A stretch of DNA of 50,961 bases from Oscillospiraceae bacterium. Its GTDB lineage: Bacteria > Bacillota > Clostridia > Oscillospirales > Oscillospiraceae. Positions 7,749 through 29,830 of the stretch are shown here, piece after piece. The notes below the pieces were generated by a model that saw nothing but the letters and a program-made list of their open reading frames with translations, was not told the origin of the DNA and did no database searches. Each line of letters starts with the position of its first letter. The first letter of the stretch is position 1. The position numbers were made by a program, and so were the translations under genes. The stretch spans positions 1-50,961 of the forward strand of contig JAFQFP010000001.1 in the NCBI GenBank assembly GCA_017398625.1. The letters run 5' to 3'.

Positions 7749-7822
7749 CGAAAAAGAGCGCAATGTTGCTCCGTGGGAGCTGCGGGGAACAGGGGGGCAG
7801 TGGGCTTCGACTTCTACGGGGA

Positions 7823-7967
7823 GATGTACCGAACAGTATCCCCCCGCCCCAGTGTGCGCACTGGGGCAGCGCTCTGCGGAGCGCCCCGGTCGCGGCTCTG
7901 ACAGTCCACCGGACTGTCATTCACTACCGCGACTGCGCTTCGCTTACCCTTTAGGCAAGGGGGGCTT
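7823..7967 (+). repeat. 145-bp intergenic repeat, copy A
   Basis: Identical to 13644-13788 except for one base (GAACAG here, GAAGAG there), in the same orientation. It contains the hairpins CCCCAGTG/CACTGGGG, CGCTCTGC/GCGGAGCG and GACAGTCC/GGACTGTC. It lies between the divergent promoters of the glycoside hydrolase and exporter genes; no coding potential is seen. Confidence 0.9.
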
Positions 7968-7974
7968 GGGGGAG

Positions 7975-8160
7975 ATGGAGGCAGTGGCGGGCGGTCAATG
8001 ACCGCCCCTACGGGTTCTATTGGGGGATGTACCGAAGAGAATCCCCCCGCCCCAGTGTGCGCACTGGGGCACCCCCCTTTAGGCAAGGGGGGCTTGGGTG
8101 TGGTGTGGGCAAGGGGGGCTTGGGTGCGGTGTAGGGGCTTTGGTGGGTAAAATTGCAGAT
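7975..8160 (+). repeat. Mosaic of intergenic repeats with two 26-bp tandem units
   Basis: Contains GGGCGGTCAATGACCGCCCC (the GC-rich palindrome also found inside the four ~216-bp elements), then a shortened version of the 145-bp repeat (from about 8027, GATGTACCGAAGAG then CCCCAGTG/CACTGGGG), then two tandem 26-base units at 8082-8107 and 8108-8133 starting GGCAAGGGGGGCTTGGGTG. No gene. Confidence 0.75.
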
Positions 8161-11061: not shown

Positions 11062-11065
11062 ATGA

Positions 11066-11093
11066 GCACCCCAGACCGAATGGTCTGGGGTGC
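11066..11093 (+). terminator. Terminator hairpin, left copy (now without U-tract)
   Basis: GCACCCCAGACC/GGTCTGGGGTGC stem with loop GAAT, five bases after the MFS stop. It has lost its T-rich tail because a ~216-bp element begins at 11098. A near-identical hairpin with T-tail lies on the other side of the element at 11315-11342. Confidence 0.8.
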
Positions 11094-11097
11094 GCTG

Positions 11098-11313
11098 CAG
11101 TCTGTCAAAAAACCGGAAATCTACCAATTCTCTTGTAGGGGCGGTCATTGACCGCCCGAAAAATCAAGTATTATTCCGATTCAAGAGCATATAAATTTAT
11201 CAAAATGCTGGGGAAATTGAAACTTTTCTTATTGTTTTTAACGGGCGATCAATGATCGCCCCTACGAATTTGATTGAAACATTGATGAAAAATAATACTT
11301 TTTTGACACTCTC
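11098..11313 (+). mobile_element. ~216-bp terminator-associated MITE-like element, copy 1
   Basis: Starts CAGTCTGTCAAAAAACC and ends TTTTTTGACACTCTC, giving imperfect terminal inverted repeats (TGTCAAAAAA core). Inside are two GC-rich palindromes, GGGCGGTCATTGACCGCCC and GGGCGATCAATGATCGCCC, facing each other, separated by an AT-rich middle. No coding capacity. Flanked by near-identical 28-base hairpins (one mismatch), suggesting an older insertion than copies 2 and 4. Other copies: 19413-19628, 21426-21640, 28497-28714. Confidence 0.8.
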
Positions 11314-11314
11314 A

Positions 11315-11342
11315 GCACCCCAGACTGAATGGTCTGGGGTGC
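11315..11342 (+). terminator. Terminator hairpin, right copy
   Basis: Same stem as 11066-11093 with one base changed (AGACTGAATGG), followed by TGCTTTTATT. It retains the T-tail and probably still ends transcripts of the MFS operon after read-through of the element. Confidence 0.75.
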
Positions 11343-13643: not shown

Positions 13644-13788
13644 GATGTACCGAAGAGTATCCCCCCGCCCCAGTGTGCGCACTGGGGCAGCGCTCTGCGG
13701 AGCGCCCCGGTCGCGGCTCTGACAGTCCACCGGACTGTCATTCACTACCGCGACTGCGCTTCGCTTACCCTTTAGGCAAGGGGGGCTT
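13644..13788 (+). repeat. 145-bp intergenic repeat, copy B
   Basis: 144 of 145 bases equal copy A at 7823-7967, same orientation, 5.8 kb away. Such identity outside genes implies recent duplication, gene conversion or mobility. Confidence 0.9.
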
Positions 13789-13852
13789 AGGTGCGGAGGA
13801 GGCAAGGGGGGCTTAGGTGCGGAGGAGGCAAGGGGGGCTTTGGGGGCGGAGG
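13775..13852 (+). repeat. 26-bp tandem repeat, three units
   Basis: Units start at 13775, 13801 and 13827, each beginning GGCAAGGGGGGCTT. Units 1 and 2 are identical; unit 3 differs in a few bases. Related 26-base units occur twice at 8082-8133. The copy sits just before the promoter of the ABC importer operon. Confidence 0.85.
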
Positions 13853-19384: not shown

Positions 19385-19412
19385 AAAGGGGCGGTTCAGA
19401 TGAACCGCCCCT
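19385..19412 (+). terminator. Hairpin, left copy, after the lipoprotein gene
   Basis: GGGGCGGTTCA/TGAACCGCCCC stem (AAAGGGGCGG start), 13 bases after the lipoprotein stop. Exactly repeated at 19629-19656 beyond the inserted element. Confidence 0.75.
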
Positions 19413-19628
19413 CAGTCTGTCAAAAAACCGGAAATCTACCAATTCTCTTGTAGGGGCGGTCATTGACCGCCCGAAAAATTAAGTATTATTCCAATTCAAA
19501 AACATATAAATTTATCAAAATGCTGGGGAAATTGAAACCTTTCTTGCTGTTTTTAACGGGCGATCCATGATCGCCCCTACGAATTTGATTGAAACATTGA
19601 TGAAGAATAATACTTTTTTGACACTCTG
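19413..19628 (+). mobile_element. ~216-bp terminator-associated MITE-like element, copy 2
   Basis: Same ends as copy 1 (CAGTCTGTCAAAAAACC ... TTTTTGACACTCTG), same internal palindromes. It is exactly abutted on both sides by a perfect 28-base direct repeat that is the complete terminator-like hairpin, so the hairpin looks like a target-site duplication. Confidence 0.85.
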
Positions 19629-19656
19629 AAAGGGGCGGTTCAGATGAACCGCCCCT
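19629..19656 (+). terminator. Hairpin, right copy
   Basis: Perfect copy of 19385-19412, followed by TGTCTGC rather than a U-tract. It lies between convergent genes and could also serve the minus-strand DUF937 gene. Confidence 0.65.
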
Positions 19657-21425: not shown

Positions 21426-21640
21426 CAGTCTGTCAAAAAACCGGAAATCTACCAATTCTCTTGTAGGGGCGGTCATTGACCGCCCGAAAAATTAAGTATT
21501 ATTCCAATTCAAAACATATAAATTTATCAAAATGCTGGGGAAATTGAAACCTTTCTTGCTGTTTTTAACGGGCGATCAATGATCGCCCCTACGAATTTGA
21601 TTGAAACATTGATGAAGAATAATACTTTTTTGACACTCTA
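21426..21640 (+). mobile_element. ~216-bp terminator-associated MITE-like element, copy 3
   Basis: Closely matches copy 2 through its full length (CAGTCTGTCAAAAAACC ... TTTTTGACACTCTA). Unlike the other copies it is not flanked by a duplicated hairpin: a terminator hairpin is present only on its right (21642-21671). Confidence 0.85.
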
Positions 21641-27984: not shown

Positions 27985-28452
27985 ATGACCATTTCTGAAA
28001 AGTCCGCATATCTGAAGGGCCTGATGGATGGCCTGAAGCTGGACACCGAAACTGCCGAGGGCAAGATGATCTCCGCCATCGTGGATCTGCTGGGTGATGT
28101 GACCAAGCGGCTGACCGATGTAGAGGCGACCACCATCGCCATCTCTGACGAGCTGGACGAGATCGAGGAAGATCTGGACGCCATCGAGGACTACATTCTC
28201 GACGAGGATGAGGACTTCGAGGAGGACTACGAGGACGACTACGACGATGACGAGTGGGACGACTACGAGGATGAGGACGAGGAATACGACGAGGGCTTTG
28301 ACTTCGGCGATCCCGAATCCACCATCTACGAGGTAGAGTGCGCCTGCGGCAACATCATCGACTTCGACGAGGAGACTCTGGAGGAAGGCAGCATCATCTG
28401 CCCCAACTGCGGCGAGACGCTTGAGTTCACCACCGACGATATCGAGGAGTAA
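27985..28452 (+). CDS. CD1247-like acidic zinc-ribbon protein
   Basis: A 155-residue cytosolic protein in three parts: a helical N-terminal domain (about 1-50, EKSAYLKGLMDGLKLD, typical of the CD1247 N-terminal domain), a long Asp/Glu-rich coiled region (about 55-110), and a C-terminal zinc ribbon with Cys119, Cys121, Cys139, Cys142 (ECACGNI ... ICPNCGETL). It follows efp by 23 bases with AAGGAGGAG upstream, an arrangement conserved in Clostridia by my recollection. Function unknown; the acidic tract and ribbon suggest interaction with nucleoprotein or RNA polymerase (inference). Confidence 0.82.
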   Translation: MTISEKSAYLKGLMDGLKLDTETAEGKMISAIVDLLGDVTKRLTDVEATTIAISDELDEIEEDLDAIEDYILDEDEDFEEDYEDDYDDDEWDDYEDEDEEYDEGFDFGDPESTIYEVECACGNIIDFDEETLEEGSIICPNCGETLEFTTDDIEE

Positions 28453-28463
28453 TTTCATTCCAC

Positions 28464-28496
28464 CAAGCACCCCGCTTCTTGCAAGCGGGGTGCTTT
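28464..28496 (+). terminator. Terminator hairpin, left copy, after the CD1247-like gene
   Basis: CAAGCACCCCGCTT/AAGCGGGGTGCTT stem, ending TTT at the border with the element. Perfect 33-base match to 28715-28747. Confidence 0.85.
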
Positions 28497-28714
28497 CAGT
28501 CTGTCAAAAAACCGGAAATCTACCAATTCTCTTGTAGGGGCGGTCATTGACCGCCCGAAAAATTAAGTATTATTCCAGTCCAAAAAACATATAAATTTAT
28601 CAAAATGTTGGGGAAATTGAAACTTTTCTTGTTTGTTTTTAACGGCCGATCCATGATCGCCCCTAGGAATTTGATTGAAACATTGATGAAAAATAATATG
28701 TTTTTGACACTCTG
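28497..28714 (+). mobile_element. ~216-bp terminator-associated MITE-like element, copy 4
   Basis: Same terminal repeats and internal palindromes as copies 1-3, 218 bases, with a few substitutions (CGGCCGATCCATGATCG at the second palindrome). Exactly flanked by perfect 33-base direct repeats comprising the whole terminator and the first three T of its tail. Confidence 0.85.
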
Positions 28715-28747
28715 CAAGCACCCCGCTTCTTGCAAGCGGGGTGCTTT
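28715..28747 (+). terminator. Terminator hairpin, right copy
   Basis: Identical to 28464-28496 and followed by two more T, so it is a complete intrinsic terminator. It also abuts the 3' end of spmB on the other strand. Confidence 0.85.
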
Positions 28748-28748
28748 T

Positions 28749-29258
28749 TCAATACAGCAGCCCTACGGTCAGCGATGCCATGAAAAAGCCCACGAAGTCC
28801 GCAAACAGGGCTGCCGGGAGGGTGTAGCGGGTCTTTTGGATGCCTGCCGCACCGAAATAGACGCTGATGGTATAGAAGGTGGTCTCCGTGGAGCCCAGCA
28901 TCACCGCGGCGATCCTGCCGATCCGGGAATCCGCGCCGTACTGTGCCATAATGTCTGCCCCCACTGCCAGCGCGGCGCTGCCGCTGATGGGACGGATCAG
29001 TACCAGCATGGCAGTTTCCTCCGGGATGCCGAAAAACCGAAATACCGGTGCCAAAAAACCGCTGAGCAGTTCCACCGCTCCGGACTGGCGCAGCATGCTC
29101 ACCGCCACCATCAGCACCACAAGGGCAGGGAGGATGGAGACAAGCAGCCTCAGCCCCTCCATGCCGCCGGTGAGCAGGGTGTCGTAGGCGTTTTCCTGCT
29201 TTTTAAGGGCGATGAGACAGATCCCAAGCAGCAGCAGCGGAACGATGTAATCCGTCAT
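28749..29258 (-). CDS. spmB: Spore maturation protein B
   Basis: A 169-residue membrane protein needed with SpmA for spore core dehydration and heat resistance in Bacillus and Clostridium. It shares the nucleoside-transporter gate fold. Matching features: MRQSGAVELL-type loop (SMLRQSGAVELLSGFLAPVF), IPEETAMLVLIRPISGSAAL, and GSTETTFYTISVYFGAAGI followed by RYTLPAALFADFVG. Start at 29258, overlapping the spmA stop by four bases (ATGA) with AAAGGTG upstream; a longer in-frame extension overlaps spmA and is rejected. Its presence indicates a sporulating lineage. Confidence 0.93.
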   Translation of the reverse strand: MTDYIVPLLLLGICLIALKKQENAYDTLLTGGMEGLRLLVSILPALVVLMVAVSMLRQSGAVELLSGFLAPVFRFFGIPEETAMLVLIRPISGSAALAVGADIMAQYGADSRIGRIAAVMLGSTETTFYTISVYFGAAGIQKTRYTLPAALFADFVGFFMASLTVGLLY

Positions 29259-29830
29259 CGCCACACCTTTCCCAGCAGACAGGCACATGCAAGCCCCAGA
29301 CCGGCGGAGCAGAGGCTGGTCAGCCACACCGCAGGCAGGATGTCAAAGGGGGAAGCGCTGCCCAGAGATGCCCGCACCGCTGCCACCGTTGCGGGAATGA
29401 ACTGGATGGAGGCGGTGTTCAGTACGATGAGACGGCATAGAGCATCGCTGGCGGTTCTACCGCTGCGGCTTGCCATCCGCTGCGCCGCCCGGATGCCCAT
29501 GGGGGTGGCGGCGTTGCCCAAACCCAGAAAATTGGCGCAGATATTGGCGCTGAGACAGCCGGCAAGCACCGAGTCCTGCCGTGTATCGGGAAAGATCCGG
29601 TGTAGCAGAGGTGTAAGAAGCCGGGAAAGCCTCCTTGTCAGCCCGATCCGCTCCATCAGATGCCCAACGCCTGTCCACAGGCACAGAGAACCTGCCATGG
29701 AGATGGCAAGCTGTATCCCTGCGGCAGCACCGTTGGGCACAGCGGCGGCAAGGTCAGCCCCACGACCCAGATAGGCGGCGCAAAGCAGGCTGATCAGGGT
29801 GATCCCGGTGAATATCCAGCTCATGATCAT
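29255..29830 (-). CDS. spmA: Spore maturation protein A
   Basis: A 191-residue membrane protein, partner of SpmB. Visible features are the N-terminal segment, GIQLAISMAGSLCLWTGVGH then LMERIGL, LLTPLLHRIFPDTRQDS, ANICANFLGLGNAATPMGIR and LIVLNTASIQFIPATV, all typical of SpmA. Start at 29830 behind GGGAGGGA. The operon order spmA-spmB is standard. A hairpin-like GTATTTTT/AAAAAATAC element sits about 35-60 bases upstream of the start; no convincing sporulation sigma-factor promoter could be confirmed. Confidence 0.93.
   Translation of the reverse strand: MIMSWIFTGITLISLLCAAYLGRGADLAAAVPNGAAAGIQLAISMAGSLCLWTGVGHLMERIGLTRRLSRLLTPLLHRIFPDTRQDSVLAGCLSANICANFLGLGNAATPMGIRAAQRMASRSGRTASDALCRLIVLNTASIQFIPATVAAVRASLGSASPFDILPAVWLTSLCSAGLGLACACLLGKVWR

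Follow-up and report, generated by a model that had tools for sequence, protein, structure and literature searches.

We analyzed positions 1 to 50,961 of contig JAFQFP010000001.1 from the Oscillospiraceae bacterium assembly GCA_017398625.1, and we refer to this whole stretch of 50,961 nucleotides as the window. An intergenic region of the window lies between a gene for an acidic protein and a convergent gene, whose product presumably resembles the spore maturation protein SpmB. The region contains the same 33 bases twice (CAAGCACCCCGCTTCTTGCAAGCGGGGTGCTTT), and the two copies enclose 218 bp that start with CAGTCTGTCAAAAA and end with TTTTTGACACTCTG (Table 1).

The preliminary description had reported a noncoding element of this length, with imperfect terminal inverted repeats, between identical copies of a hairpin, and it was correct to the base. 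The terminal inverted repeat is short, with 12 of the first 14 positions matching. Both 33-bp copies were said to hold the entire terminator hairpin of the upstream gene plus its first T residues, which is the case, but the full T-run (GTGCTTTTTC) is retained by the right-hand copy only. The left copy ends with GTGCTTT, and the element begins directly after it. Of the two copies, a simple terminator scan recognized just the right-hand one; it reported 2 sites in this region, compared with an average of 0.9 in shuffles, a modest excess. The length of the repeat is well outside what chance gave, as a search of base-shuffled windows for exact repeats of 14, 16, 18, and 20 bases spaced within 3 kb found a 14-base repeat in 7 of 20 windows and a longer one in 0 of 20.

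Table 1. Features at the insertion site and complete copies of the 218-bp element (window positions unless a contig is named)
Feature	Position	Strand	Basis or remark
Upstream gene, 155 aa, acidic protein; its terminator is the insertion target	27985..28452	+	
Left 33-bp copy of the duplicated target, with the complete hairpin and 3 T; U-tract shortened by the insertion	28464..28496	+	Identical to 28715-28747; fold -23.9 kcal/mol
218-bp non-autonomous element (MITE) with IS1182-type ends CAGTCTGTCAAAAA / CAGAGTGTCAAAAA	28497..28714	+	Own-genome copies; ends resemble IS1182 terminal repeats
Internal palindrome region TAGGGGCGGTCATTGACCGCCC, occurring alone elsewhere in the genome	28534..28557	+	20/21 short matches cover approximately element positions 37-64
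Right copy of the target duplication, then the native T-run	28715..28747	+	Sequence identity and terminator scan
Convergent downstream gene, marker for empty sites	28749..29327	-	
Second window copy	19413..19628	+	94% identical; perfect 28-bp hairpin copies at 19385-19412 and 19629-19656
Third window copy	11098..11312	+	93% identical; 29-bp hairpins at 11065-11093 and 11314-11342, one mismatch
Fourth window copy	21426..21639	+	Hairpins on the two sides differ; not duplicated
Fifth complete copy	C35:39291		23-bp flank pair, 20 identical bases (diverged)

Copies in the same genome and a second family

We then looked for other copies in the genome from which the window comes (G000; 1.35 Mb in 57 contigs, 68.9% complete). 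The 218-bp element gave 34 matches, of which 13 (itself included) were longer than 50 bp and 92 to 100% identical and 21 measured 22 to 30 bp; 20 of these 21 correspond to the internal palindrome. Of the long matches, five are complete copies (four within the window), and their hairpin flanks are perfect duplicates in two cases, differ by one base in one, have diverged in one, and show no duplication in one. The eight remaining long matches are interrupted or end at contig ends. Comparison of their flanks paired L012 with L007 (26/26 bases), L013 with L009 (28/28), and L006 with L008 (16/17, a weaker pairing, as the hairpin lies within sequence that is itself repeated). These pairs look like the halves of three elements, and no flank partner was found for the half-copies L010 and L011 in this comparison of flanks within the genome.

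Four copies of a second family, approximately 255 bp long, are also present in this genome. They have the same ends and an interior unrelated to that of the 218-bp element, and all four lie between hairpin duplications of 25 to 34 bp (one with one mismatch). When the diverged and weak pairs are counted, duplicated hairpins thus flank 11 of the 12 testable elements of both families. Flanking duplications thus recur at other copies, with variable lengths, and replacement of the IS1272 type, in which the hairpin is deleted and no duplication is formed, does not describe these sites.

The 218-bp stretch has the properties of a MITE: it is short and gene-less (on inspection, the overlapping open reading frames look like chance frames), it combines a terminal inverted repeat with a target duplication, and it is multicopy within one genome. 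Its designation as a small mobile element agrees with the further copies between duplicated hairpins, and, judged by these features of its sequence, the 218-bp element is a transposon. A search of 60 genomes, its own included, matched only short stretches around palindromes outside its own genome, which left no homologous copies from other species to work with.

Another reading would be a functional regulatory or RNA element that is kept for a host purpose and was spread by recombination, not by transposition. Such an element might well occur in multiple copies beside gene terminators, as this one does, and the fold of the 218 bp is moderate (single-strand DNA z of -2.4). Nevertheless, we consider this reading improbable: the ends are of the transposon type, target duplications are present, matches beyond the own genome are limited to short stretches around palindromes in the 60 genomes searched, and the Rfam matches lie far below their gathering scores (7 matches listed, the best with 29.9 bits against 120), for which reason we treated them as chance.

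Several other repeats were seen along the way. In L007, L011, L012, and L013, a second insertion with ends TGTCAAGTGTAACATGG.../TGTACAGTGTAG... sits inside the internal palindrome of the MITE (element positions 49 to 53) with an apparent 5-base repeat, CATTG, and its position does not differ between the copies. The palindrome itself has many solitary occurrences, clustered on the small contigs C46, C12, and C36 (L015-L020 and L022-L029). In the second MITE family (L042, L044, L053, L063, and L100), the left end is itself palindromic (CAGTCTGTCAAAAAA-loop-TTTTTTGACAGACTG) and hairpin-like. Window positions 7805-8118 and 13768-13837 hold direct repeats with CCCCAGTGTGCGCACTGGGG palindromes and CCCTTTAGGCAAGGGGGGCTT units, which form another, intergenic-looking repeat type.

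Orthologous sites of the upstream gene

DNA of the upstream gene was matched in 126 of the 136 genomes searched, and we examined 49 loci of the matched relatives for empty sites (the 29 best relatives listed and 20 more). Every locus has a hairpin no more than 110 nt from the stop codon of the orthologue; a permissive scan, which misplaced the hairpin in at least L145, counted one in 34 loci, two in 12, and three in 3. The same convergent downstream gene lies within 115 bp in 7 of the 49 loci (L149, L176, L178, L179, L182, L187, and L190), with the intergenic regions of L187 and L190 being read by eye from positions. In six of these seven syntenic relatives, a single hairpin separates the convergent genes, while L182 has several different ones, and none of the seven has an identical hairpin twice. 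This result identifies the 33-bp repeat as a target duplication of the whole terminator hairpin, as the preliminary description had suspected. The description had asked for empty sites with a single terminator, and at this locus they exist.

The same comparison bears on the idea that no target was duplicated, the element having landed between preexisting tandem terminators or the terminator having been copied by recombination. Two different hairpins do flank the copy at 21426-21639 and several IS copies, and for 15 of the 49 relatives the permissive scan placed more than one hairpin (two or three) in the 110 nt next to the gene. However, the flanking copies are perfectly identical, loops included, at many unrelated sites, the ends of the repeats coincide with those of the elements, and the empty sites have a single hairpin in 6 of 7 syntenic cases, which makes this idea highly improbable.

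In two loci from other species, independent IS1182-like ends adjoin the terminator of this gene. In L172, a different 206-bp element occupies the terminator of the same upstream gene and is flanked by a 28-bp hairpin duplication. In L177, a short palindrome (CTGTCGAAAAACCCC..TTTTCGACAG) lies beside that terminator.

The end motif and IS1182 transposases in related genomes

We found the end motif CAGWSTGTCAAAAA in 68 of the 136 genus genomes searched, versus 10 hits of the reversed control pattern across all 136 (hand count). The outer 40 bp folded at -15 kcal/mol or below at 49 of 83 nonredundant motif sites in the sequences examined, compared to 3 of 79 stretches taken 300 bp away; many of the motif sites that lack an outer fold point inward, as they form the inner arm of a palindromic left end. 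Alignment of the outer flanks yielded 32 motif-anchored direct repeats, from which we dropped L074 (15 bp, no hairpin) as well as L075 and L084 (repeats seemingly unrelated to an insertion). The 29 repeats kept (set A) belong to 27 short and 2 long elements and measure 22 to 41 bp, 16 being perfect; since they were collected by their repeats, the share of repeat-less elements cannot be derived from them. Folds of -8 kcal/mol or below were obtained for 28 of the 29, stem feet and repeat ends are no more than 2 nt apart in 24/28 (5') and 26/28 (3'), and a T-tract follows the right copy in 20 cases (control, 1/105), with an A-tract before the left copy in 8 more.

Some of these ends belong to elements with a gene. 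The motif leads into a gene in L080 and L093, and in L064 it is followed by the first part of that gene, which encodes an IS1182-family transposase (379.7 bits against a cutoff of 270) with the domains DDE_Tnp_1_6, DDE_Tnp_1, and DUF772. L120 is a complete IS of 1520 bp that has ends of this kind, an open reading frame of 495 aa, and a 25-bp hairpin duplication. Other IS1182 copies of the genus have repeats of 34 bp and 64 bp, the 64-bp repeat being a palindrome. From 67 IS1182 ends starting with CAG, we derived the consensus CAGN[CT]TGTC[AG]AA[AG]AA, which the MITE ends CAGTCTGTCAAAAA and CAGAGTGTCAAAAA match; CAGAGTGTCAAAAA has a G at position 5 that is rare among IS1182 ends (1/67). At the level of sequence, the ends of the 218-bp element are thus shown to resemble IS1182 ends of related gut bacteria, with the likeness between MITE and IS1182 being confined to approximately 15 bp at the ends.

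IS1182 partners were seen in relatives only. The full-length transposase with matching ends that the preliminary description had proposed to look for exists in relatives, as IS1182 (complete in L120), but no IS1182 transposase and hence no autonomous partner was found in the 68.9%-complete own genome. Among 13 motif-rich genomes, only 2 have such a transposase (in G028, a fragment below the cutoff), and none was detected in the own genome and 10 of the 12 others, one of these being rated 100% complete. Metagenome-assembled genomes often lose multicopy IS. Motif and transposase hardly covary in a weak hand tally, the motif being present in 10 of 17 genomes with an above-cutoff transposase versus 58 of 119 others.

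Scanning the titled genome collection gave 207 confirmed IS1182 relatives, from which 80 loci were retained and 62 were testable (at least 150 bp on both sides). We found a direct flanking repeat at 41 of the 62 loci (19 to 64 bp, median of 30, 35 perfect). Of these 41 repeats (set B), 40 are hairpins, whose feet deviate from the repeat ends by at most 2 nt in 37/40 (5') and 38/40 (3'), whereas control 30-mers fold at -8 kcal/mol or below in 7 of 81 cases. A T-tract follows the right copy in 25, an A-tract precedes the left copy in 6 more, and neither is present in 10; T-tracts occur at 12 of 163 control positions. Several loci can come from one genome (8 from Chakrabartyella piscis, whose 8/8 retained loci lie in different hairpins, and 7 of the 62 tested from Clostridiales CCNA10), and sets A and B overlap in two insertions that are the same by sequence (L093 = L194 and L120 = L193).

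The other 21 of the 62 loci have no flanking repeat, and both ends are recognizable in 10 of them. Several are flanked by two unrelated hairpins (e.g., L234, L235, and L238), which we infer were left by recombination between copies; the two sides of the window copy at 21426-21639 also carry unrelated hairpins, perhaps through recombination between insertions. We also examined nine plasmid loci of more distant IS1182 members. One (Salinivibrio) has a 20-bp hairpin repeat, and none was seen at the five proteobacterial and three Enterococcus faecium plasmid loci among the nine; the three E. faecium loci (two sharing flanks) have a hairpin-like right flank and no duplication. Given this mixed outcome, the hairpin-duplicating behavior seems to belong to a part of the IS1182 family.

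Based on these shared ends and flanks, the 218-bp element is very probably a MITE that an IS1182-family DDE transposase mobilizes in trans. We gave very little credence to a transposase of the IS30 type, for which IS1630 of Mycoplasma fermentans provides a precedent: it targets and duplicates inverted repeats (PMC3317919, citing Calcutt 1999), and its duplicated junctions of 16 to 26 bp at 4 of 7 complete copies represent the same outcome (PMC3317919). IS1630 has a transposase of another family, and the passages on it in that source do not mention a MITE (PMC3317919). The IS30 model NF033563 detected nothing in the own genome or in the motif-rich genomes G015, G016, and G018 and matched in 5 of the 40 genomes searched, a set that includes a part of the motif-rich genomes, and the elements found with CAGNCTGTCAA-type ends plus a gene carry IS1182; we dropped this origin. 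Least probable of all is the IS1634/IS1549-type transposase that the preliminary description had brought in for the long, variable duplications reported for that group, and we abandoned it as well, since the 13 motif-rich genomes gave 0 IS1634 matches over the cutoff (two weak hits of 18 to 19 bits, one inside an IS1182 gene) and the same ends and hairpin duplications occur on IS1182 elements.

Hairpin-guided insertion and known systems

The sequences compared here show that most testable copies, MITE or IS, adjoin a hairpin and that most are flanked by a repeat of the whole hairpin, which varies in length and sequence. By inspection, the targets have no sequence consensus. In the mechanism that we propose, the IS1182 transposase would recognize a cruciform or hairpin, and strands would be joined at the 5' feet of the hairpin. 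The stagger would then equal the whole hairpin, and gap repair synthesis would copy it onto both sides of the element. The target appears to be the palindrome, with the stagger being set by the hairpin. The 10 of 41 repeats without a T- or A-tract, together with the one 64-bp palindrome, argue that the palindrome and not termination is recognized, and these 10 repeats and the T-tract control of 12/163 indicate that the target is not strictly a terminator. In our opinion, terminators are hit most because they are the commonest strong intergenic palindromes.

DDE transposons normally duplicate a short target of fixed length. We lean slightly toward a more general proposal, in which a clade of IS1182 and its MITEs use the extruded hairpin as the target and transfer strands at the 5' feet of its arms. 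The length of the duplication (19 to 64 bp seen) would then be set by the host palindrome and not by the enzyme, and a terminator would be copied and not destroyed, while in sister elements of IS1182, IS1272 among them, cleavage would take place at the opposite, 3' foot and remove the hairpin. If true, both outcomes of one structure-guided reaction would be found within one IS1182 family. The dozens of natural insertions with duplications of 19 to 64 bp that track the host stem point to a DNA-structure-guided choice of target and offer ready-made test substrates.

Such insertions also suggest a low-harm route, as hairpins are multiplied, not broken, and the T-run is kept past the element. At the locus studied here, the right copy retains its T-run, and the upstream gene should therefore still terminate, past the element. 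The suggestion that duplicating a terminator is a strategy that causes little harm is plausible. Some of the "tandem terminators" that annotation of gut Clostridia finds on either side of a short spacer may be the scars of transposons.

For IS1182, ISfinder gives direct repeats of 0 to 60 bp. IS1182-linked MITEs and published IS1182 members are listed with short repeats in several sources (PMC3852290, PMC3196728, PMC3281130), including the tabulated ISMac2-linked MITEs of the IS1182 type (PMC3852290), ISCaa15 with a 4-bp repeat (PMC3196728), and ISPse1, whose tabulated value of 4 bp is apparently a direct repeat (PMC3281130). MITEPye1 of Paracoccus yeei is a MITE whose terminal repeats are of the IS1182 type and which also has direct repeats, but the relevant part of that source mentions neither a hairpin target nor terminator duplication (PMC11578231). 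The SPRITE, RUP, and BOX elements of pneumococcus are likewise small intergenic repeats, with SPRITE being terminator-like, but duplication of a resident terminator is not described in the portion of the source that concerns them (PMC10969869).

Closer to the present elements are members of IS1182 that insert into hairpins. In staphylococci, the targets of IS1272 and TnSha1 are hairpins that lack a sequence consensus and include several confirmed terminators, but according to the excerpts concerned these elements delete or replace the hairpin and do not duplicate it (PMC4923244, PMC5678879). Duplication of the whole stem-loop is only drawn, as the hypothetical pathway b in Fig 13 of the IS1272 paper, while the data in that part of the paper are for hairpin replacement (PMC5678879). 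ISCbo5 of Clostridium botulinum group III and C. novyi resembles our elements in being of the IS1182 type and in its insertion into gene-end hairpins: all sites but one are hairpin-forming inverted repeats at the ends of genes, likely transcription stop signals (PMC3098183, 2011). It differs in being an autonomous IS, with no MITE, and the section of that source on these sites mentions a "surrounding hairpin" and does not measure a duplication (PMC3098183). Among the literature matches listed (titles and abstract openings, with subscription journals mostly outside the scope), none describes a MITE that duplicates whole terminators. The preliminary description knew of no account of such an element, which still applies to a terminator-duplicating MITE among the matches listed, but the insertion of IS1182 into gene-end hairpins had been reported in clostridia in 2011 (PMC3098183). 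What is new here is the MITE families and the measured duplication of whole hairpins; the kind of insertion itself is partly known.
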